This document shows positions 3 to 54,762 of a stretch of DNA of 64,000 nt, piece after piece. The stretch comes from Alistipes sp. (GTDB lineage Bacteria > Bacteroidota > Bacteroidia > Bacteroidales > Rikenellaceae). Position 1 is the stretch's first letter. Every line of letters begins with the position of its first letter. The stretch spans positions 1 to 64,000 of the forward strand of contig JAGBVG010000048.1 of NCBI GenBank assembly GCA_017630455.1. Reading direction: 5' to 3'. Both the position numbers and the translations under genes were made by a program. Below the pieces are notes generated by a model. It worked only from the letters and a program-made list of their open reading frames with translations, made no database searches and was not told where the DNA came from.

Positions 3-80
3 AGATTTAGAGATTACAAAGGATATATTGCTATCTTAGTGGCGATGGTAAGAGATTTTAAAGACAATATTAGAATATAA
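3..80 (+). CDS. C-terminal tail of an unidentified gene (5' end outside window)
   Basis: An open frame runs from the left edge to a TAA at 78-80 and encodes about 25 residues ending KDNIRI. It points toward purB and is followed by the hairpin at 121-164, as expected for the end of a gene. The remaining piece is too short to assign to a family. It could also be chance, because a 25-codon open frame is not significant by itself. Confidence 0.35.
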   Translation, partial: RFRDYKGYIAILVAMVRDFKDNIRI

Positions 81-120
81 TTTTTGATTTTATAGGAGCA
101 AATTTGTTCTATCGTAATAA

Positions 121-164
121 AAAATATCGTGGGATAGTACACGAAGTACAGCCCACGATATTTT
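121..164. terminator. Bidirectional intrinsic terminator between the left-edge gene and purB
   Basis: A perfect 13-bp inverted repeat (121-133 against 152-164) has an 18-nt loop. An A run on the left and a T run on the right let it work from both directions. It lies 38 nt beyond the purB stop and so would end the purine operon transcript. Confidence 0.8.
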
Positions 165-202
165 GTTTAGGATGGGGCAAAGATGCCCTATAAAATCGAA
201 AA

Positions 203-1498
203 TTACTCGATGCCGACGCGATCAAAGATGAAATCAACGTTTTTGAGGTAATACTCAAGAGTGAAGCAAGCATCCAACTCCTCGCGGGTGAGCACCTCCA
301 TAACTGCTGGGGTCTCAGCGAGAAGCTCCTGGTAGTCGGCACGCTCGCTCATAGCACGCATAGCAACAGGCTGCACAGTGTCGTATGCCTGCTCACGTGA
401 GAAGCCACGCTCGATGAGCGCGTTCATAACACGCTGCGCGAAGATCACCTTACGTGTGCGGTAGATATTCTCCTCCATAACATCCTTGAACACTACGAGG
501 TTCTCGAGGATACCACGGAAGCGGTTGAGCATATAGTCGAGAAGCATTGTAGCATCTGGGAGGATGATACGCTCTGAAGATGAGTGTGAGATATCACGCT
601 CGTGCCAGAGGGCTACGTTCTCGTAGAAGGCTGCCATATAACCACGCATCACACGTGCGCAACCACACATATTCTCCGAAGAGATAGGGTTACGCTTGTG
701 AGGCATAGCCGAAGAACCCTTCTGACCCTTGCCAAATGACTCCTCCACCTCGTGAACCTCGGTACGCTGGAGGTTACGAATCTCCATAGACATCTGCTCG
801 ATGCTCGATGCGATAACTGCCAAGGTAGCCATATAGTAGGCGTGGCGGTCGCGCTGAATAACCTGTGTAGAGATGTTTGCGCTGTCGATGCCGAGCTTCT
901 CGCATACGTAGTCCTGGATAAATGGAGGGATGTTTGCGAAGTTACCCACAGCTCCAGAGATCTTACCAACCTCTACGCCACGTGATGCAGCGATGAAACG
1001 TGTGAGGTTGCGCTTCATCTCCTCGTACCACAATGCCCACTTGAGACCGAAGCTTGTGATATCGGCGTGGATACCGTGAGTACGACCGATGCAAGGTGTA
1101 TTCTTGAACTCGATAGCACGGTTACGCAACACCTCGAGCATCTTCTCGATATCCTCCAAGAGGATAGAGTTTGCCTGCTTGAGGAGGTAGCCGTTAGCGG
1201 TATCTACAACATCGGTACTTGTGAGACCATAGTGCACCCACTTACGCTCCTCGCCGAGAGTCTCGCTCACGGCGCGTGTGAAGGCTACAATATCGTGGCG
1301 TGTCTGCTGCTCGATCTCATAGATGCGGTTGATATCAAACGACGCACTCTTCCACAACTTCTCTACATCCTCCTTTGGCACTACGCCAAGCTGGCTCCAC
1401 GCCTCTGAGGCAAGAATCTCAACGCGAAGGTAGGCATCAAACTTATTCTGCTCGGTCCACACCTTACGCATAATCTCTCTACTATATCTCTCAATCAT
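203..1498 (-). CDS. purB: Adenylosuccinate lyase
   Basis: PurB catalyses two fumarate-releasing steps: SAICAR to AICAR in IMP synthesis, and adenylosuccinate to AMP. It is a cytosolic homotetramer. The 431-aa length matches the Bacillus-type family. The fumarase/ASL superfamily signature [10 protein letters not shown] lies at about residues 262-271 with its flexible catalytic loop, TRHD (His68) and GRTHG (about 138-142) are present, and the C-terminal helical domain is intact. It is the last gene of the minus-strand purine operon, 22 nt after folD, and is followed by the terminator at 121-164. The start is the ATG at 1498. Confidence 0.97.
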
Positions 1499-3673: not shown

Positions 3674-3697
3674 TCAGACGCTAAGTAGCGCGTCTGA
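3674..3697. repeat. Perfect 8-bp hairpin in the purH-purD spacer
   Basis: TCAGACGC at 3674-3681 pairs exactly with GCGTCTGA at 3690-3697 around an 8-nt loop. It lies 40 nt upstream of the purD start, beside a short tandem run of ATTAGTA units at 3648-3668. There is no T tract on the minus strand after it, so an intrinsic terminator is unlikely; a processing or stability site is possible. Confidence 0.5.
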
Positions 3698-3747
3698 CTA
3701 ATTGTCAGAAAGGGTTAGATTTGGTGCCAAGCGAAATTGACACGGAA

Positions 3748-3780
3748 GGGGGTGTACTTGGCGTACATCCCCTTTCGGGG
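3748..3780 (-). repeat. TTGGC-loop hairpin with an alternative fold, purH-purD spacer
   Basis: Ten base pairs (3748-3757 with 3763-3772, one G-U) close a 5-nt loop TTGGC (GCCAA in the transcript). The right arm CCCC (3769-3772) can instead pair with GGGG at 3777-3780 around a 4-nt loop, so two mutually exclusive hairpins exist just after the purH stop. A hairpin with the same loop and a different stem occurs at 51965-52009, which suggests a dispersed structured element. Confidence 0.5.
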
Positions 3781-3817
3781 CAATAAACTTGGTGCCGAAG
3801 ATGACCCTTTATCACAA

Positions 3818-5347
3818 TTAGTGTTTGAAGTGACGCATACCTGTAACAAGCATCGTCATTCCAAACTCATTAGCCTTCTTCACAGAATCCTCGTCACGAA
3901 CAGAGCCACCAGGCTGAACAAGGGCTGTAACGCCATATTTCTCAGCAAGAGTAACGGTGTCGTCGAATGGGAAGAAACCATCCGATGCAAGGACAAGACC
4001 CTCGGTGAAGCCTGCAGCCTGAGCCTGCTTGAGAGCAATCTCCGCAGAGCCTACACGGTTCATCTGACCAGCTCCTACACCTACGGTGTGACCATTCTTA
4101 ACCGCAACAATAGCGTTCGACTTCACGTGCTTCACGATACGCCAACCAAAGTTCATATCCTTCAACTCCTCGGCCGATGGCTTACGCTCTGTGACGCACA
4201 TATCGGCAACAACCTCCTTAGTGTCGGTGTCGAGCTGCTGAACGAGGAGACCGCCGTTTACAGATACGTACTGAGTCTGAACACTCTCCAACTCACCCAT
4301 ATCCACCTGCAAGAGACGCAAGTTCTTCTTAGTGCAGAGAATCTCGAGAGCCTCAGCAGAGAATGATGGAGCCATAATAATCTCCAAGAAGATAGGCTTC
4401 ATAAGCTCGGCAACCTCCTTTGTAAGCTCACGGTTTACAGCCACGATACCTCCAAAGATGCTCACCTTATCAGCCTCATAAGCCTTCTCCCACGCCTCGC
4501 GGATATCCTTGCCAATAGCAGCACCACAAGGGTTCATATGCTTAAGACCTACAGCAAAAGGCTCCTTAAACTCACGAACGATGTTCAACGCAGCGTTTGC
4601 ATCCTGGATATTGTTATAAGACATCTCCTTGCCATTGAGCTGCTTAGCGGTAGCCAAAGAGTATGGCACACGCTCCTGCGATGCGTAGAACTTAGCCTCC
4701 TGGTGAGGGTTCTCGCCATAGCGCAACGTCTGCACGAGGTCGAACGATGCAAACAACTTCTCGTTCAACTCCGCCTGCTTACGCATATATGTTGCGATGC
4801 ACATATCATACTCTGCGGTGTGGGTATAGGCCTTTGCCGAGAGCTGCAAGCGTGTCTCAACAGTAGTGTTGCCACCAGCCTCGATCTCCGAGATGATGCG
4901 AGCATAATCCTCTGGGTCGCAAACAACAGTTACGTCGCGATAGTTCTTCGCTGCAGAACGCAACATTGATGGACCACCGATGTCGATATTCTCAATGGCA
5001 TCCTCCATCTTCACATCAGGCTTCGAGATAGTCTGACGGAAAGGATACAAATTTACACAAACCATATCGATGAACTCGATATTGTTCTGGCGCAATGCCT
5101 CGAGATGGCTCTCATCGTCGCGGCGAGCCAACAAACCACCGTGAACCTTTGGGTGAAGAGTCTTTACACGGCCATCGCAGATCTCCGGAAAGCCCGTAAC
5201 ATCGCTGATACCGATTGTCTCCACGCCACTCTCATCGAGGAGCTTCTGAGTACCTCCTGTGGCAATAATCTCCCAACCCAGGCGGCGAAGATTCTTACAA
5301 AAATCTACAACGCCTCGCTTATCGCTAACACTTACTAATGCTCGCAT
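3818..5347 (-). CDS. purH: Bifunctional AICAR transformylase / IMP cyclohydrolase
   Basis: PurH performs the last two steps to IMP: formylation of AICAR with 10-formyl-THF and ring closure. The N-terminal MGS-like IMP cyclohydrolase domain covers about residues 1-195 (start ALVSVSDKRGV, then TGGTQKLL). The transformylase half contains LRYGENPHQ and the KHMNPCGAA catalytic region near residue 265. At 509 aa it is full length. It follows purN at 13 nt and precedes the hairpin-bearing spacer before purD. The start is the ATG at 5347. Confidence 0.97.
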   Translation of the reverse strand: MRALVSVSDKRGVVDFCKNLRRLGWEIIATGGTQKLLDESGVETIGISDVTGFPEICDGRVKTLHPKVHGGLLARRDDESHLEALRQNNIEFIDMVCVNLYPFRQTISKPDVKMEDAIENIDIGGPSMLRSAAKNYRDVTVVCDPEDYARIISEIEAGGNTTVETRLQLSAKAYTHTAEYDMCIATYMRKQAELNEKLFASFDLVQTLRYGENPHQEAKFYASQERVPYSLATAKQLNGKEMSYNNIQDANAALNIVREFKEPFAVGLKHMNPCGAAIGKDIREAWEKAYEADKVSIFGGIVAVNRELTKEVAELMKPIFLEIIMAPSFSAEALEILCTKKNLRLLQVDMGELESVQTQYVSVNGGLLVQQLDTDTKEVVADMCVTERKPSAEELKDMNFGWRIVKHVKSNAIVAVKNGHTVGVGAGQMNRVGSAEIALKQAQAAGFTEGLVLASDGFFPFDDTVTLAEKYGVTALVQPGGSVRDEDSVKKANEFGMTMLVTGMRHFKH

Positions 5348-30385: not shown

Positions 30386-31948
30386 TTACAATGGAATGTT
30401 GTTATGACGCTTTGCAGGATTCTCCAAACGCTTGTTGCGCAAAGACTCCAAAGCACGGATCACACGGAAACGTGTGTTGCGTGGCTCGATAACATCGTCG
30501 ATGTAGCCGTAGCGTGCAGCGTTGTATGGGTTAGAGAACTTGTCGCGGTACTCCTGCTCCTTCTCTGCAACGAACTTAGCCTTATCCTCCTTGTTCTCGA
30601 ATGCAGACAATGCCTTAGCGTGCAATACCTCAACAGCACCACTTGCACCCATAACTGCGATCTCAGCAGTTGGCCAAGCGTAGTTAACATCACCACGGAT
30701 GTGCTTAGATGACATAACGATGTATGCACCACCGTAAGCCTTACGCAATGTAACAGTTACCTTTGGCACTGTAGCCTCGCAGTATGCGAAGAGAAGCTTA
30801 GCACCGTGGGTGATAACACCACCGTACTCCTGAGCTGTACCAGGCAAGAAGCCAGGAACGTCAACCAAAGTTACGAGTGGAATGTTGAACGCGTCGCAGA
30901 AACGTACGAAACGTGCAGCCTTACGTGAAGCGTTGATATCGAGAACACCCGCCATAAACTTAGGCTGGTTAGCGATGATACCTACACTCTGGCCGTTGAA
31001 ACGTGCGAAACCTGTGATGATGTTCTTAGCGTATGCCGCTGCAGACTCCAAGAACTCGCCATTGTCGACGATAGCCTTGATAACCTCCATCATATCGTAT
31101 GGCTTGTTAGGGTTATCAGGGATGATCTCGTTGAGGATATCCTCCTTACGCGCGATATCATCGGTGCAAGGCTGATCTGGTACGAGAGCTGTGTAGTTCT
31201 GTGGCATATATGAGAGAAGGTCGCGAATAAGCTTAAGACCCTCCTCCTCTGAATCTACTGCAAACTGAGCAACACCCGACTTTGTTGTGTGCATATTAGC
31301 ACCACCCAACTGCTCCTGAGTTACATCCTCACCAGTCACGGTCTTAACAACCTTAGGACCTGTCAAGAACATATTTGATGTCTCGCGGCGCATAATGATG
31401 AAGTCGGTCAACGCTGGAGAGTATACAGCACCACCTGCGCAAGGACCAAAGATAGCAGAGATCTGTGGGATAACACCTGATGCCATAACGTTACGCTGGA
31501 AGATGTTTGCGTAACCAGCCAAAGCGTTAACACCCTCCTGGATACGTGCACCACCAGAGTCGTTCAAACCGATGCAAGGAGCACCATTGCGAACTGCCAT
31601 ATCCATAACCTTGCAAATCTTGTCTGCCAAAGAGATAGACAAAGAACCTGCTGTTACGGTGAAGTCCTGTGCAAATACATATACCAAACGGCCAGCGATG
31701 GTACCATAACCTGTTACAACGCCATCACCGAATGTATGCTTAGCATCCATACCGAAGTCGTAGCAGCGGTGAGTAACGAACATATCGAACTCCTCGAAGC
31801 TACCCTCGTCCAACAACATAGCGATACGCTCACGAGCAGTATACTTACCCTTCTCGTGCTGCTTGTCGATAGCCTTCTGGCCACCACCCATACGAGCAGT
31901 CTGACGGTTATCCATCAACTTCTCAATTGCTTTCTGAATTTCGCTCAT
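30386..31948 (-). CDS. mmdA: Methylmalonyl-CoA decarboxylase alpha subunit / acyl-CoA carboxyltransferase
   Basis: The 520-aa carboxyltransferase has two crotonase-like halves. [20 protein letters not shown] and [16 protein letters not shown] mark the acyl-CoA site; [20 protein letters not shown] and [14 protein letters not shown] mark the carboxybiotin half. The same family includes propionyl-CoA carboxylase beta. I favour the decarboxylase because the operon encodes the membrane beta and gamma pump subunits and a biotin carrier but no biotin carboxylase. The reaction would be (S)-methylmalonyl-CoA to propionyl-CoA plus CO2, driving Na+ export. It lies downstream of mce across a 196-nt spacer containing structured element A. 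Confidence 0.93.
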
Positions 31949-32029: not shown

Positions 32030-32153
32030 AATAAATGATATAATTTGAGTTAGTTTTAGGCGCGCAAAGTTCGAGAAACCGCAGTTTACTCGACGTAAAT
32101 GAGGATTTCGAGAACGAGTGCAACGCCAAAATAACCAAATTATATTATTTATT
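32030..32153 (+). repeat. Structured dispersed element, copy A
   Basis: This 124-bp imperfect palindrome has outer arms 32030-32046 and 32137-32153, then GTTAGTTTT/AAAATAAC, then an inner stem GTTC (32069-32072)/GAAC (32112-32115) and a tip AGTTTAC/GTAAAT. The core matches copies at 34476-34600 and 51817-51941. Its right arm overlaps the mce stop codon, so it lies in the mce-mmdA intercistronic RNA. Confidence 0.75.
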
Positions 32154-32555
32154 CTTGTTCTCGCAGAGCTCTGTAAGGATACCCTGAGTAGACTTTGGGT
32201 GAAGGAACGCGATAGTAAGCCCCTCAGCACCCTTACGTGGAGTCTTGTCGATAAGGCGGATGCCGTGAGCCTCAGCGTCTGCCAACTGCTCCTCGATGTT
32301 CTCGCAAGCGAGAGCCATATGGTGAATACCAACACCCTTATTCTCGATATACTTAGCGATTGTAGACTCAGGAGATGTAGGCTCCAAGAGCTCAATCTTA
32401 GTCTGACCAAGCATAAAGAATGCGGTCTTAACCTTCTGGTCAGCTACCTCCTCGATAGCGTAACACTTCAAACCGAGTACATTCTCCCAATAAGGAATTG
32501 CCTCCTCGAGGCTGTTTACTGCGATACCAAGATGCTCAATGTGTGATACTTTCAT
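32145..32555 (-). CDS. mce: Methylmalonyl-CoA epimerase
   Basis: Mce interconverts (R)- and (S)-methylmalonyl-CoA, linking the B12-dependent mutase to the decarboxylase. The 136-aa vicinal-oxygen-chelate protein has two beta-alpha-beta modules. HIEHLGIAVNSLEEAIPYWE supplies the first metal His, GIHHMALACENIEEQL the second, and the C-terminal GAEGLTIAFLHPKS ends the fold. It is first in the decarboxylase operon with a -7 box TACCTTTG at 32633-32640. Its stop codon falls inside the right arm of structured element A. Confidence 0.95.
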   Translation of the reverse strand: MKVSHIEHLGIAVNSLEEAIPYWENVLGLKCYAIEEVADQKVKTAFFMLGQTKIELLEPTSPESTIAKYIENKGVGIHHMALACENIEEQLADAEAHGIRLIDKTPRKGAEGLTIAFLHPKSTQGILTELCENKNK

Positions 32556-34435: not shown

Positions 34436-34467
34436 GAGGGTGTCCAACAAGTTTTATGGACACCCTC
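34436..34467. terminator. Hairpin after meaB
   Basis: A perfect 10-bp stem GAGGGTGTCC (34436-34445) with GGACACCCTC (34458-34467). The T run is weak. The loop sequence resembles the terminator after ffh at 59461-59495 (both have GTGTCCAA, a TTTT loop, GGACAC), so they may be related units. Confidence 0.7.
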
Positions 34468-34475
34468 AATTGTTT

Positions 34476-34600
34476 AAGAAGTTGTATAACAAAGGTTAGT
34501 TTTAGGCACACGAAGCACGAAAAAGCGGAGTTTACTAATCGTAAATGAGCATTTTGAGTGCGAGTACAACGAGAAAATAACCTTGTTAGACAGCCTCTTT
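34476..34600 (+). repeat. Structured dispersed element, copy B
   Basis: This 125-bp imperfect palindrome has outer arms near 34476-34494 and 34581-34600, then GTTAGTTTT/AAAATAAC, an inner stem GCAC (34515-34518)/GTGC (34558-34561) and a tip AGTTTAC/GTAAAT. It directly abuts the stop codon of the gene at 34602 with the same polarity as copies A and C. Confidence 0.75.
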
Positions 34601-34601
34601 T

Positions 34602-35120
34602 CTATTTAAATATGTCTATAACAACACGCTCCTCCAATCGAAGAATCTCATCCACCCTCGCCATCATCTTACACGATAGCACAGGGCAGCCGAAGCTACC
34701 TACCGTAGAGAGAGGAAATATCGGAAAGGAGGTGGTATACTCCCAGCCGTGAAGCACCACGCAGCGTGAGCGGAGGTTGGAGTTCGTAGCATCAAGACCG
34801 TCGAGCCTATATGCCACGCCATAGCGACCCTCATAACGCTCGGCAACCACAGCACGACCCTCACTCGAGAGGTGCGAGCCATCCTCATTCGAGAGACGCG
34901 CGTAGGCAGAGCGGACGTGCGACCTCTGTGCACCACTGCCGTGACTAACAGGCGCGATAAGCATAGGCTCGTTGCGCTCCATATCCCACACCACGAAGCG
35001 ATTTCTACCCGAGTGGCGCGACAGGTCTACAAACATCGCCACACGGGTGTTATAACCCTCACGCGCACAAAACTCCCTGAGCACCACGGCACGCTCCACC
35101 ACCCTACTTTGCAAGCTCAT
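34602..35120 (-). CDS. Murein L,D-transpeptidase catalytic-domain-like protein
   Basis: The 172-aa protein resembles the YkuD_2-type L,D-transpeptidase family: RFVVWDMERNEPMLIAPVSHG, then EDGSHLSSEGRAVV, RYGVAYRLDGLD, the conserved His in VVLHGWEY and the catalytic Cys in STVGSFGCPVLS. No signal peptide is visible, which is odd for a periplasmic cell-wall enzyme. The true start might lie upstream, or the protein is cytosolic or non-classical. Its ATG overlaps the 3' end of the sirtuin gene by 17 nt. Structured element B begins at its stop codon. Confidence 0.78.
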   Translation of the reverse strand: MSLQSRVVERAVVLREFCAREGYNTRVAMFVDLSRHSGRNRFVVWDMERNEPMLIAPVSHGSGAQRSHVRSAYARLSNEDGSHLSSEGRAVVAERYEGRYGVAYRLDGLDATNSNLRSRCVVLHGWEYTTSFPIFPLSTVGSFGCPVLSCKMMARVDEILRLEERVVIDIFK

Positions 35121-37803: not shown

Positions 37804-37912
37804 TATGTCATTCTGAGCGTAGTGAAACGAAGTCGAAGAATCTCCTTGTTGCCCACTAAATATCAGTGTGTTGCATATCAGGAGATCCTTCGACTACGCT
37901 CAGGATGACATA
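37804..37912. repeat. Long inverted repeat of the TGTCATyCTGAGCG type
   Basis: The left unit (37804-37846) and the right unit (37878-37912, inverted) match over about 33 positions, apart from an 8-nt insertion in the left unit and a few mismatches. The unit sequence TGTCATCCTGAGCG...GTCGAAGGATCTC is a dispersed intergenic repeat that I recall from many bacterial genomes. It lies between the convergent DUF4251 gene and uvrA and could act as a terminator hairpin. Confidence 0.75.
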
Positions 37913-47006: not shown

Positions 47007-47204
47007 ATGACGTGGCAGGATTGGAGCGTGGCGGCTATAGCCATTGTCGTTACGATAATATTGGTACGCCGCATCTGGCGATTCTTCGTATGCGGCGACA
47101 CGGCAAGCAGCTGCGAGGGTTGCAACAAGGAGTGTAGCCACCGCAAGCGAAGTAAGCGCGAAGAGAAGTGATTGATAAGTTTAAAAATACACAGGGAGTT
47201 TAAG
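47007..47204 (+). CDS. FeoB-associated Cys-rich membrane protein
   Basis: The 65-aa protein has one N-terminal helix (WSVAAIAIVVTIILVRRIW) followed by a Cys-rich tail (FVCGDTASSCEGCNKECSHR) and a basic end. This matches the small FeoB-associated Cys-rich proteins often found right after feoB, thought to act like FeoC or as an iron-handling accessory. It starts 4 nt after feoAB. Its last codons and stop run into the terminator stem at 47186-47231. Confidence 0.75.
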
Positions 47205-47231
47205 AGACATCTTAAACTCCCTGTGTATTTC
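47186..47231. terminator. Strong terminator between the feo operon and cdaA
   Basis: A perfect 21-bp stem (47186-47206 with 47211-47231) has a GACA tetraloop and lies between convergent genes. The left arm contains the stop codon of the Cys-rich gene. Confidence 0.85.
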
Positions 47232-48046: not shown

Positions 48047-48095
48047 TATTCTAAATATTTTACTGAAACCCTAAGATAGTCGATAAATAACGGAG

Positions 48096-48103
48096 CAAAA
48101 ATA
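48096..48103 (-). promoter_or_regulatory. Promoter -7 box of cdaA
   Basis: The minus strand TATTTTTG fits TAnnTTTG, 49 nt before the start codon. Confidence 0.45.
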
Positions 48104-48161
48104 ATAAAAAAAAGCCGATAAGCAAACGCAAATCGGCAATTTTATAACGTTGTTATAACGC

Positions 48162-48845
48162 TTACTCCAAAGCACCCGCCTCGTAAAGCTCGTCAACCTT
48201 CTTAAGAACAAGATCTGAGATGTTGAGCGAAGGATCAGCATCGACAACAGATACAGCGTTGATAATCATCTTGTAACGTCTATCAGCATTAAGCTCCTCG
48301 ATAGCCTTGCGAGCGATGCTCTGAAAGCGATTCATAAGCACCATCTGCTCCTCGGCAAGAGCCTGCTCCTCGGTCTGGAGCTTCTGACCCTCGGTCTGAA
48401 CTGTGGTCTGGAGAGCTGTCATACGAGTCTGGATAGACTCACCCTTCTTCTGCAACTCTGCCTGACGCTCCTGAGCCTTGAGAGTGGTAACAAGACCCTT
48501 CTCATAATCCTGCTGGAGCTTCATCGCCTCATTCTGAAGCTTATTGTACTCCTGAGCCAAGCTCTGCTCCTTCTTTGCCCAGCCATCCTGCGCCTCTGCG
48601 GCACGCACCTGGAACTCCTGCATCTTGGTCTCCAAAGCCTTACCCTCCGAAGCATAGAGCTTGCTTGATGACATAATATAGTCGAGATCAACATATACGA
48701 CATCGCCACTTGCTACACACTCCACGGTGCGAACCTCGGTGCTGTCGCTTGCTGTCACGTTCTTGTCCGCGTTACCACTTGCAGAACCTGCACAAGAGGC
48801 CATCAATGCCGACGCAGCCAAGATAAAGAAAAGACTCTTTTTCAT
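48162..48845 (-). CDS. OmpH/Skp-family lipoprotein
   Basis: The 227-aa protein has a lipoprotein signal (LAASALMASC, Cys18). After a short linker comes the Skp pattern: a first strand (GDVVYVDLDYIMSSSKLYAS), a long Gln/Glu/Lys-rich coiled coil of about 100 residues, and a C-terminal strand (YKMIINAVSVVDADPSLNI). Skp proteins hold unfolded outer-membrane proteins in the periplasm; a lipid anchor makes this a membrane-tethered variant. It is monocistronic, with a -7 box TACCTTTG at 48889-48896 (minus). Confidence 0.87.
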   Translation of the reverse strand: MKKSLFFILAASALMASCAGSASGNADKNVTASDSTEVRTVECVASGDVVYVDLDYIMSSSKLYASEGKALETKMQEFQVRAAEAQDGWAKKEQSLAQEYNKLQNEAMKLQQDYEKGLVTTLKAQERQAELQKKGESIQTRMTALQTTVQTEGQKLQTEEQALAEEQMVLMNRFQSIARKAIEELNADRRYKMIINAVSVVDADPSLNISDLVLKKVDELYEAGALE

Positions 48846-50266: not shown

Positions 50267-51811
50267 ATGAGATACATATATAACACAATAACATTCATTA
50301 TTGCTATTACGCTCCTTAGCTCGTGTTTCAAAGAGCCAAAGGTGAGCTACGAAGATGTGGAGCGCCGCTCGCTGCGCGCGTGGATAACAGAATACCACCC
50401 CGAGCTTCTCGAGAATTACCAGGAGGAGGGTGAGTATTACGTGGAGGTACTCGACCGAGGCGTTCAGGACTCTGTTGAGGTTACCGGCAAGGATGTGTGG
50501 GTGTGGTGCGACTTCACAACACGCAACCTCGATGGCGATATCGTTGAGACACGTAATGCCGACCTCACGAAGATGGTAAACACCTTCAACAAACATACAC
50601 GCTACATCCCTGCATTCCGCTTCAGTGGCAAGGATAGCCATACGCTGATGGAGGGTACATACCTCGCGACGTTCAACAAACTCAAGATTGCCGATGAGGA
50701 GCTGATGGTGCGCTACGGCACTAAGTTGCGTCTCTACCTGCCATCTATCGTAACGGAGAGCAACGTGGCGACAAACGACGGTGGCTACGAGGGTGAATAT
50801 GCTCTCGATACAAGCAAGCCTCTGACTGTGGAGATGACAGTATATGGCCACGTGGGCAACCCTGTGGCATACGAGGGTGAGCGCGTGACAGCGTTCGCTA
50901 ATGTCAATGGCGGCGTATGCCAGGAGCATAGCACAACAACTGAGGAGGACGCTGAGACCCAGAGCTATAGCCGTCGCCGTGCGACACGTGGCGACAGCGA
51001 CGAAGAGGAGCAGGAGGAGGTAGATACACGACCTTTGGAGTTCTTCGATGGTCGCTGGCATCAACCTGTGGATACTATGAAGCACCTCTTGGTGAAGTAC
51101 TCATACTCTCCCGAGACCACTATCGACTTTGCCGGGGCGTTGGGTGTCGACACGCTCAAATACCCTTCGGAGAATATCTATAAGGCTGGTGGCGTGAATA
51201 TCGCAGACCTCGACAGCCGTATCAACGCCGCCCTCATAGAGCGTTTCGGCAGAGGAATTGATGGCGACGAGGAGATATTGGAGGCCGACTCCATAAATAC
51301 CAAGACCACTGCAAAGGTGTGGTATATAGGTCGCTTCTTGGACGGCTTTATCTTCGATACCAACATCGACGAGGTTAACGAGATTCTCTACGGCACGGTG
51401 GAGAATAAGGGCGAGGCATTGTCGTTCACAACCAACGATCCTGTGGAGGAAAACGAGTATATCTTGGCGTGGGAGTATGCCATCCCTACGCTACGCCTCG
51501 GACAGTGGGCTGCCATCGTGACGGTGTCGACATACGGCTACGGCATTTCGGGCAAGGTTGGCTCACACACCTCAACAACCACAACCGATGGCACATACGA
51601 CTACGCCAGCTACTATAACTATATGAACTATATGAACAACTACTACGGTGGTTACTATGGTTATGGTAATATGTACAACCAGGGATACTACGGCTATAAC
51701 CCCTACTACTATGGTTATACGCCACAGGTGACAACCACAACCGTCACCACCACCTCTACGGAGATCCCGGCGTTCTCGCCACTGCTGTTCCAGGTATTTG
51801 TGGAAAAGTAG
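50267..51811 (+). CDS. Large lipoprotein with divergent FKBP-like domains and a Tyr-rich insert
   Basis: The 514-aa protein has a lipobox LLSSC (Cys20). Residues 75-195 read like a degenerate FKBP domain (VWVWCDFTTRNLDGDIVETR ... GTKLRLYLPS). An acidic linker (230-255) follows. Residues 350-514 look like a second one: GRFLDGFIFDTN, then LRLGQWAAIVTVSTYGYG, and finally IPAFSPLLFQVFVEK. Between STYGYG and IPAFSP, where FKBPs have a short flap loop, there is a Thr-rich plus Tyr/Gly/Asn-rich insert (about 434-498; densest at 444-484). It follows the smaller FKBP-like gene by 10 nt. Isomerase activity is doubtful. Structured element C starts 5 nt after its stop. Confidence 0.7.
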   Translation: MRYIYNTITFIIAITLLSSCFKEPKVSYEDVERRSLRAWITEYHPELLENYQEEGEYYVEVLDRGVQDSVEVTGKDVWVWCDFTTRNLDGDIVETRNADLTKMVNTFNKHTRYIPAFRFSGKDSHTLMEGTYLATFNKLKIADEELMVRYGTKLRLYLPSIVTESNVATNDGGYEGEYALDTSKPLTVEMTVYGHVGNPVAYEGERVTAFANVNGGVCQEHSTTTEEDAETQSYSRRRATRGDSDEEEQEEVDTRPLEFFDGRWHQPVDTMKHLLVKYSYSPETTIDFAGALGVDTLKYPSENIYKAGGVNIADLDSRINAALIERFGRGIDGDEEILEADSINTKTTAKVWYIGRFLDGFIFDTNIDEVNEILYGTVENKGEALSFTTNDPVEENEYILAWEYAIPTLRLGQWAAIVTVSTYGYGISGKVGSHTSTTTTDGTYDYASYYNYMNYMNNYYGGYYGYGNMYNQGYYGYNPYYYGYTPQVTTTTVTTTSTEIPAFSPLLFQVFVEK

Positions 51812-51816
51812 TAGCG

Positions 51817-51941
51817 TAGAAGCCGCCTAAGAAGAGTTATTTTCTCGTTGCACTCGTCCTCAATATGCTCATTTACACCAAGTAAACTGCACTATTTCGG
51901 ACTTCGTGCGCCTAAAACTAACCCTTGTTATACGACTTCTA
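51817..51941 (-). repeat. Structured dispersed element, copy C
   Basis: This 125-bp imperfect palindrome has outer arms starting TAGAAG (51817) and ending CTTCTA (51941), then GTTATTTT against AAAACTAAC, an inner stem GTCC (51856-51859)/GGAC (51899-51902) and a tip ATTTAC/GTAAAC. It is in reverse orientation to copies A and B, but the same end faces the adjacent stop codon. Confidence 0.75.
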
Positions 51942-51964
51942 AAAGTTAGAGTTGAGGTAAAGAG

Positions 51965-52009
51965 AAAGAGCGGATGGGACATACTTGGCGTATTTCCCAT
52001 TCGCTCTTT
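51965..52009. repeat. TTGGC-loop hairpin, second copy
   Basis: A stem of about 19 bp with one mismatch closes the loop TTGGC (51985-51989), with ATAC/GTAT next to the loop. The hairpin at 3748-3772 has the identical loop with GTAC/GTAC next to it. Flanking A and T runs would also allow terminator function. Confidence 0.6.
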
Positions 52010-52091
52010 GGATTGAGGTGCAACAGATTGCGCCTTATCCCCAACACCGAATTTCTTGATAGAAGGTAGTAGATGCAACGCTCGGCAAAAA

Positions 52092-52140
52092 AAATGAGGA
52101 AGGGCTGTACTGATGCGTACTGCCCTTTCTCATTTATTTT
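52092..52140. terminator. Hairpin between convergent genes
   Basis: AAATGAG plus AAGGGC plus GTAC on the left pair with GTAC, GCCCTT and CTCATTT on the right (52092-52134), with T-rich sequence after it and an A run before it. It is bidirectional in form. Confidence 0.7.
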
Positions 52141-52179
52141 TTGTTAGCGGCAGCAGATGCTGCCTTATCTCAAGAAATT

Positions 52180-54762
<2,583 letters not shown>

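Follow-up and report, generated by a model that had tools for sequence, protein, structure and literature searches.

What is the palindrome of about 125 bp that recurs at gene ends in this stretch of Alistipes DNA: an RNA structure maintained behind coding sequences, or a piece of DNA that moves? We analyzed the whole stretch of 64,000 nucleotides, here called the window, and refer to the palindrome as el1 and to the host genome (2.0 Mb) as G000. The three copies given in a preliminary description were confirmed at their coordinates, as were their inner stems GTTC/GAAC, GCAC/GTGC and GTCC/GGAC, each within a span of exactly 47 nt, and their same-polarity placement at stop codons, copy A overlapping its stop codon. 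The copies and adjoining features are listed below, with scores from the covariance models R1 and R2 introduced further on.

30386-31948, (-): mmdA (label used here), carboxyl transferase gene, the next same-strand gene after copy A
32030..32153, (-), the strand on which its neighbor gene 32145-32555 reads: el1 copy A, R1 140.3 bits
32055..32127, (-): conserved core of copy A, R2 59.6 bits
32145-32555, (-): mce (label used here), glyoxalase fold by Pfam, taken as methylmalonyl-CoA epimerase
34436..34467, (-): hairpin GAGGGTGTCC..GGACACCCTC, resembling an intrinsic terminator and lying downstream of copy B along its gene's strand
34476..34600, (-): el1 copy B, 1 nt after the stop codon 34602-34604, R1 139.5 bits
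34501..34573, (-): conserved core of copy B, CGTT ... CTCATTTAC-loop-GTAAACTCCGC ... GCCT, R2 64.2 bits, E 1.6e-13
34602-35120, (-): gene of an L,D-transpeptidase-like protein, adjoining copy B
50267-51811, (+): copy C gene, without Pfam match
51817..51941, (+): el1 copy C, starting 5 nt past the stop codon that closes gene 50267-51811(+), R1 130.6 bits
51844..51916, (+): conserved core of copy C, R2 55.6 bits

In the window el1 is 124-125 bp long and, in the direction of the gene that it adjoins, is built roughly as GAAGCCGTCTAACAAGG-TTATTTTGGCGTTGCACTCG-stem-CTCAAAATCCTCATTTAC-loop-GTAAACTCCGG..-stem-CTTCGTGCGCCTAAAACTAAC-TCTTGTTATACGACTTC. Its core, set within a long imperfect palindrome, consists of CGTT, a variable stem, CTCAAAATGCTCATTTAC, a 4-nt loop, GTAAACTCCGCTTTTTC, a variable stem and GCCTT. 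At copy A the outer arm overlaps the end of gene 32145-32555(-), where AAT AAA TAA forms the last two codons and the stop. The exact 12-mer TTAGTTTTAGGC occurs 11 times in G000, while the reversed control gave 0 occurrences, and the covariance model R1 returned 30 rows, 8 of which were the same places on the other strand, leaving 22 distinct places (10 above 130 bits and 12 weaker, the weakest with an E-value of 0.05, these E-values being rough). Pairing of the arms breaks off sharply where the unit ends, at GAAG..CTTC; one pair further out, the bases are complementary in 51 of 88 cases. Duplication of the flanks as inverted copies beyond the arms was considered and rejected, as pairing stops within 1-2 nt.

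We then asked how regularly el1 is placed. For 95 copies (91 loci, 18 genomes; best-scoring copies only, with a crude, home-made ORF caller), the nearest upstream ORF had the same sense as el1 in 80 and lay on the opposite strand in 15, a bias with a chance of 3e-12 under random orientation, where about half would be expected, if relatedness is ignored. In 68 of those 80 same-sense copies, el1 started between -13 and +33 nt of the stop codon. In other Bacteroidales families, 43 core copies in 40 chosen stretches (15 genomes) gave ++ in 17 cases, -- in 10, -+ in 7 and +- in 3, the remaining 6 having an ORF on one side only. Across the GTDB genomes, 61 copies gave, with crude ORF calls, ++ in 21, -- in 18, +- in 11 and -+ in 11. 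The polar, stop-abutting placement that had been claimed from three copies therefore holds in this genus but not as a general rule, being looser in other Bacteroidales families.

The window holds three further palindromes at stop codons, listed here with their genes.

78..205, (-): el5 palindrome, tip TACTTCGTGTA in gene sense, overlapping the purB stop
203-1498, (-): purB, adjoining the el5 palindrome
3697..3822, (-): el3 palindrome, tip TACGCCAAGTA in gene sense, the same kind of tip, overlapping the purH stop
3818-5347, (-): purH, adjoining the el3 palindrome
52049..52180, (-): el2/el4-type palindrome, tip TACGCATCAGTA in gene sense, ending at the stop of gene 52180-52494(-) and convergent with copy C

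Among 18 loci of the families el2 to el5 (tip TACGC..AGTA in gene sense), hand-picked as hairpin tips from 38 after removal of duplicates, of el1 and nested copies and of matches without a hairpin, the gene was on the expected strand in 17, and in 13 of those 17 the stop lay 53-68 nt from the tip. The tip TACTNNGCGTA alone was mildly enriched, with 33 matches against 19 in the reversed control. The stop-codon habit is common to other palindrome families of the host genome. In the arms of el2 to el5, AGAT or something close to it occurs on both strands and would give tandem G-A mismatches at an equivalent position in every palindrome (3697-3822, 52049-52180, 78-205; L043, L032).

Other repeats and hairpins were seen beside these. 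Positions 37804-37912 hold a long inverted repeat, TATGTCATTCTGAGCGTAGTG..ACTACGCTCAGGATGACATA, which we take to be a widespread bacterial repeat; a similar sequence follows the copy C gene in the related genome G021 (L358). Positions 47185-47230 form a perfect 21-bp inverted repeat with a 4-nt loop, and a near-perfect hairpin with 20-bp arms, AAAGAGCGGATGGGACATACTTGGCGTAT.., lies at 51965-52009, in the interval separating copy C from the el2/el4-type palindrome; for portions of 51958-52180, numerous matching places exist in six related genomes. Several terminator-like hairpins have a common core like TGTCCAACA..TGTTGGACA and outer stems that differ yet pair (L005, L007, L008 and L010 of G000; L262 and L267 of G001), and these may be a repeat family of their own.

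One alternative is that el1 is an intrinsic terminator or part of one. A terminator-like hairpin is indeed often found 10-17 nt downstream of el1, and G001 has nearly the same hairpin accompanying identical copies of the palindrome wherever the contig continues. However, no U tract follows el1 itself, and copy A lies between two same-strand genes, with no terminator seen between it and the mmdA gene 30386-31948. Moreover, likely orthologous ends without el1 have a terminator-like hairpin of their own: in G336, G022, G017 and G011, the likely orthologues of the copy C gene (protein identity 59-73%; compared by eye after alignment) end in a stop codon, a short gap and such a hairpin, indicating that el1 occupies that gap. 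We therefore regard a terminator as very improbable.

A palindrome at stop codons in one orientation also recalls the attC sites of integron cassettes, here dispersed over the genome. The consensus boxes of attC are RYYYAAC and GTTRRRY, and the left arm of el1 is often GTCTAAC, which fits the first. The right arm is GTTATAC, which does not fit the second, copy A has neither box, and the copies are dispersed. No integron integrase (TIGR02249) exceeded the curated cut-off in any of 31 genus genomes, sub-threshold matches being found in 31/31 of these and in 14/14 controls alike. It is thus extremely improbable that el1 is an attC site.

The weightier alternative is that el1 is a 3'-UTR RNA element selected in place: once transcribed, the hairpin would protect the mRNA, serve in its processing or bind a regulator, and compensatory changes would preserve the RNA fold. 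Its polar placement behind stop codons and its stable folds agree with this, and so does its pairing. In the 95-copy alignment (A2, which is fitted to the model), 92.5% of 4173 cells were paired, and 34 of the 44 pairs showed change on both sides, compared with 19.1 +- 1.8 in shuffles, 0 of 500 of which reached that number, and 14-21 for slid structures. The genome-wide excess of compensatory changes on which the preliminary description had staked its case was therefore present.

Strong covariation in dispersed repeats can, however, have its source in mobile DNA that is palindromic and, taken alone, is no evidence that an RNA is functional. A way to separate the two is a sense-strand wobble test: if the sense-strand RNA were selected, G-U should outnumber A-C. 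In the variable pairs, counted on the sense strand, GT accounted for 55 cells and AC for 96 when two mostly G-T columns were left out, and for 211 and 96 when they were included. Changes within clusters of close copies, which are recent, were balanced at threshold 8 (11 GT, 10 AC and 12 other single changes, 6 double and 62 unpaired), giving 6 doubles against 33 singles; at the looser thresholds 10 and 12, the GT to AC ratios were 14:12 and 14:15, with 11 and 18 doubles. By comparison, a control set of 85 terminator-like hairpins from the loci analyzed, with symmetric scoring, gave 53 GT and 26 AC. Set against this control, the counts give no clear sign of sense-strand selection in el1. An Rfam search of the window at gathering score returned a single tRNA and no match at el1.

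Some observations point the other way. Among close copies, change was roughly threefold rarer at paired than at unpaired sites. Only three orthologous el1 pairs were found; they are diverged (flank identity 70-83%) and showed 21 double Watson-Crick to Watson-Crick changes against 17 single ones. Together with the doubles among close copies, this makes constraint in place, or exchange of whole modules, possible. By eye, an arm that lies inside a coding end also matched a synonymous codon difference, AAA/AAG in mce and CAC/CAT in purH, something not expected if resident copies simply decayed. The covariation seen here is nonetheless no demonstration of RNA function, and the matching arms look like a property of mobile DNA.

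We next compared the same gene ends between genomes. R1 found 2-79 matches in 18 of 25 genus genomes, where one place may count on both strands, and none in the other 7; outside this family but within the order, matches occurred in 7 of 16 genomes, six of these having a single one. The mce 3' end carried an el1-type core in only 4 of the 27 genomes with a match (G000, G021, G336 and G005) and lacked it in 23, as judged by eye. Filled and empty states both occur among the five genomes whose Mce protein is identical: in G011, G004 and G017 the protein is identical to that of G000 and the el1-type core is absent. At the end of the copy C gene, G336, G022, G017 and G011 had no el1 in the sense of that gene, G011 had one of opposite polarity beyond the terminator-like hairpin, and G021 kept the outer arms with the interior lost. 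At the purH end, again by eye, G000 and G021 have common outer arms and differing interiors, still other interiors occur in G011, G336, G017, G022 and G020, and the remaining genomes (30 with a match) have other spacers, many of them short.

A second palindrome is nested in some el1 copies; at mce it is present in G021 and absent from G000, with the junction GGCGT|TGCAC in the G021 copy and the same junction in L001 and L007. In G001, several identical el1 copies stand behind different genes, and a number of copies lie at contig ends. By eye, no direct target duplication was seen at el1. Two loci of G000 (L041 and L064, contig C54) are mosaics in which an el1 tip module sits within el3-type arms.

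Filled and empty orthologous ends, identical copies behind different genes and nested palindromes all argue for mobile DNA. The preliminary description had weighed a 3'-UTR RNA structure against a mobile hairpin that targets gene ends; the latter is favored, and the former loses ground because of presence/absence, nested modules and the missing sense-strand G-T excess. We consider it unlikely that el1 is an RNA element selected in place, although an effect on mRNA 3' ends is possible. In our judgment el1 is probably a small, non-autonomous, MITE-like mobile DNA hairpin that some enzyme would move and that is possibly related to ERIC. In keeping with the generic traits of MITEs, it is non-autonomous, has inverted repeats and shows presence/absence polymorphism, the last between species only. 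We propose that el1 moves as a DNA hairpin and that the enzyme would recognize the conserved tip and the CGTT and GCCTT segments. Mobility would require pairing, which would persist in multiplying lineages or be restored when one arm serves as template for the other, whereas resident copies would drift. The 3'-end placement may reflect either targeting or selective survival in the gap between stop codon and terminator.

No mobilizing enzyme was found for el1 with the profiles PF01797 and TIGR02249 in the 31 genus genomes. The first of these bears on a further explanation, that el1 is a REP or REPIN moved by a RAYT, a Y1 (IS200-like) transposase. Like REPs, which lie mostly downstream of coding regions according to PMC3733652, el1 is palindromic, intergenic and often behind genes. 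Yet PF01797 was found in 0 of the 31 genus genomes, the control being positive in 5 of 14, and el1 measures 125 bp as against 20-40 bp, so we give this explanation very little credence. As 7 of 25 genus genomes have no el1 match and others have up to 79, a search for the enzyme by gene content is feasible.

Relatives of el1 were sought beyond the genus. The tip pattern was found in at least 119 stretches of GTDB genomes, and the taxa of the 80 named matches listed comprise many Pseudomonas, Halomonas and relatives, other Proteobacteria, Alistipes, Rikenellaceae and other Bacteroidota; the named contigs that carry near relatives of el1 belong to Alistipes/Rikenellaceae. Among the matches listed there were 125 tips, the tip itself being the search pattern; of the 118 with enough flank, 95 had CGTT, 81 had GCCTY and 69 had both. 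From 33 of these 69 copies, with no ERIC included, we built the core model R2, which matched in 41 of 149 Bacteroidales genomes (the host genome included) and 39 of 133 genera. A strict search for the exact tip pattern over 296 genomes of the phylum, with only two others of the order sampled, matched G000 alone. In 18 loci of Pseudomonas, Halomonas and relatives, the Rfam matches were to tRNAs (four) and to the P17 sRNA (one), and no element coincided with any of them. Proteobacterial copies carry small extra hairpins or inserts near GGC|TC and before CCTTGC (L137, L144, L180, L184 and L187; Pseudomonas and Halomonas), and Pseudomonas copies have YTAG ends, whose reading as IS5-like duplications was set aside.

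The preliminary description knew of no name for the element. This was incomplete, since ERIC and YPAL are close precedents. ERIC (also IRU or RU-1) is, like el1, an imperfect palindrome of high and variable copy number, 127 bp long compared with 124-125 bp, and el1 shares with it the trait of many intergenic copies (22 places in G000). The two may have a core register in common, CGTT..TCAYTTAC-N4-GTAARCTCC..TTC..GCCTT, and R2 ranked E. coli ERIC first in 4 of 4 distinct loci in the same register, with 14.2-17.8 bits for four copies that are not independent (E 0.011-0.086 in 12.4 kb; best other match 12.1 bits). Chance alone reached 16.5 bits in the 64-kb window, at 48090-48162, which is an ordinary terminator, so that the ERIC scores by themselves are no proof of homology. 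Three of the four ERICs start 1, 6 and 5 nt behind the stops of ybhI, cusC and ubiV, in the same polarity as el1, whereas the one at pgk-fbaA has no such placement. The inner stem and arms differ between ERIC and el1, and the 5'-TA-3' termini and target duplication with which ERIC is listed in PMC2229807 are neither of them seen consistently in el1. From this comparison of sequences, el1 may be a distant relative of ERIC; the link is weak, and such a homology is likely enough to be worth testing, though not proven.

ERIC is treated in PMC10969869 as a repeat of Enterobacteriaceae and Vibrionaceae, with published effects on transcript levels when at 3' ends. Such effects, like the possible influence of YPAL on RNA stability reviewed in PMC2229807, would also suit an RNA element. 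More tentatively, mobile hairpin elements of Bacteroidota and Proteobacteria might form one superfamily, with ERIC as its branch in enterobacteria, in which an enzyme would recognize the apical hairpin and CGTT/GCCTT, insertion at stop codons would have fixed polarity in some lineages, and evolution would proceed by nesting, module exchange and arm templating; these processes would yield double changes without selection at the RNA level. We hold this extension to be possible, though short of probable.

YPAL is the closest precedent for the behavior of el1. It is reported to occur just behind stop codons at terminators, and the YPAL-type trait of insertion close behind genes at hairpin or terminator targets was found in el1 as well. 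YPAL (RU-2, Yersinia) is described in PMC2229807 as a palindromic mobile unit that goes with upstream genes and targets sites at or next to dyad symmetry, both filled and empty sites being known. It differs from el1 in length (about 168 bp versus 124-125 bp), in its target duplications of 3-26 bp, none of which are seen at el1, and in sequence, since by eye the YPAL given in Table 1b of PMC2759123 is without the el1 tip CTCATTTAC..GTAAACT.

Other repeats resemble el1 less closely. REP/REPIN and CGTC repeats are likewise hairpins mostly downstream of genes, but are 20-40 bp long with GTAG or CGTC tags; CGTC-tagged repeats are without a known transposase according to PMC3733652. Correia/NEMIS, RUP and other MITEs are like el1 in size class, inverted repeats and transcription with their neighbors, and Correia and RUP are listed with target duplications and TA termini (PMC2229807, Table 1). 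The Pseudomonas stem-loop families (such as Pae-1 and Ppu-9; PMC2267715) are likened to el1 for their size class and inverted repeats, and some of the Pseudomonas copies may already be catalogued under such names. No description of el1 was found in the literature covered on ERIC, YPAL, Bacteroidetes or Alistipes repeats, and ERIC-like repeats of Pseudomonas and Bacteroidetes, which was mostly other than subscription papers; among the matches listed for papers containing el1 core strings, no title concerned el1, and the excerpts covered gave no answer as to how such repeats move. In sum, el1 belongs to a known general kind of repeat, spanning more widely and keeping to its polarity more strictly than in the descriptions covered.
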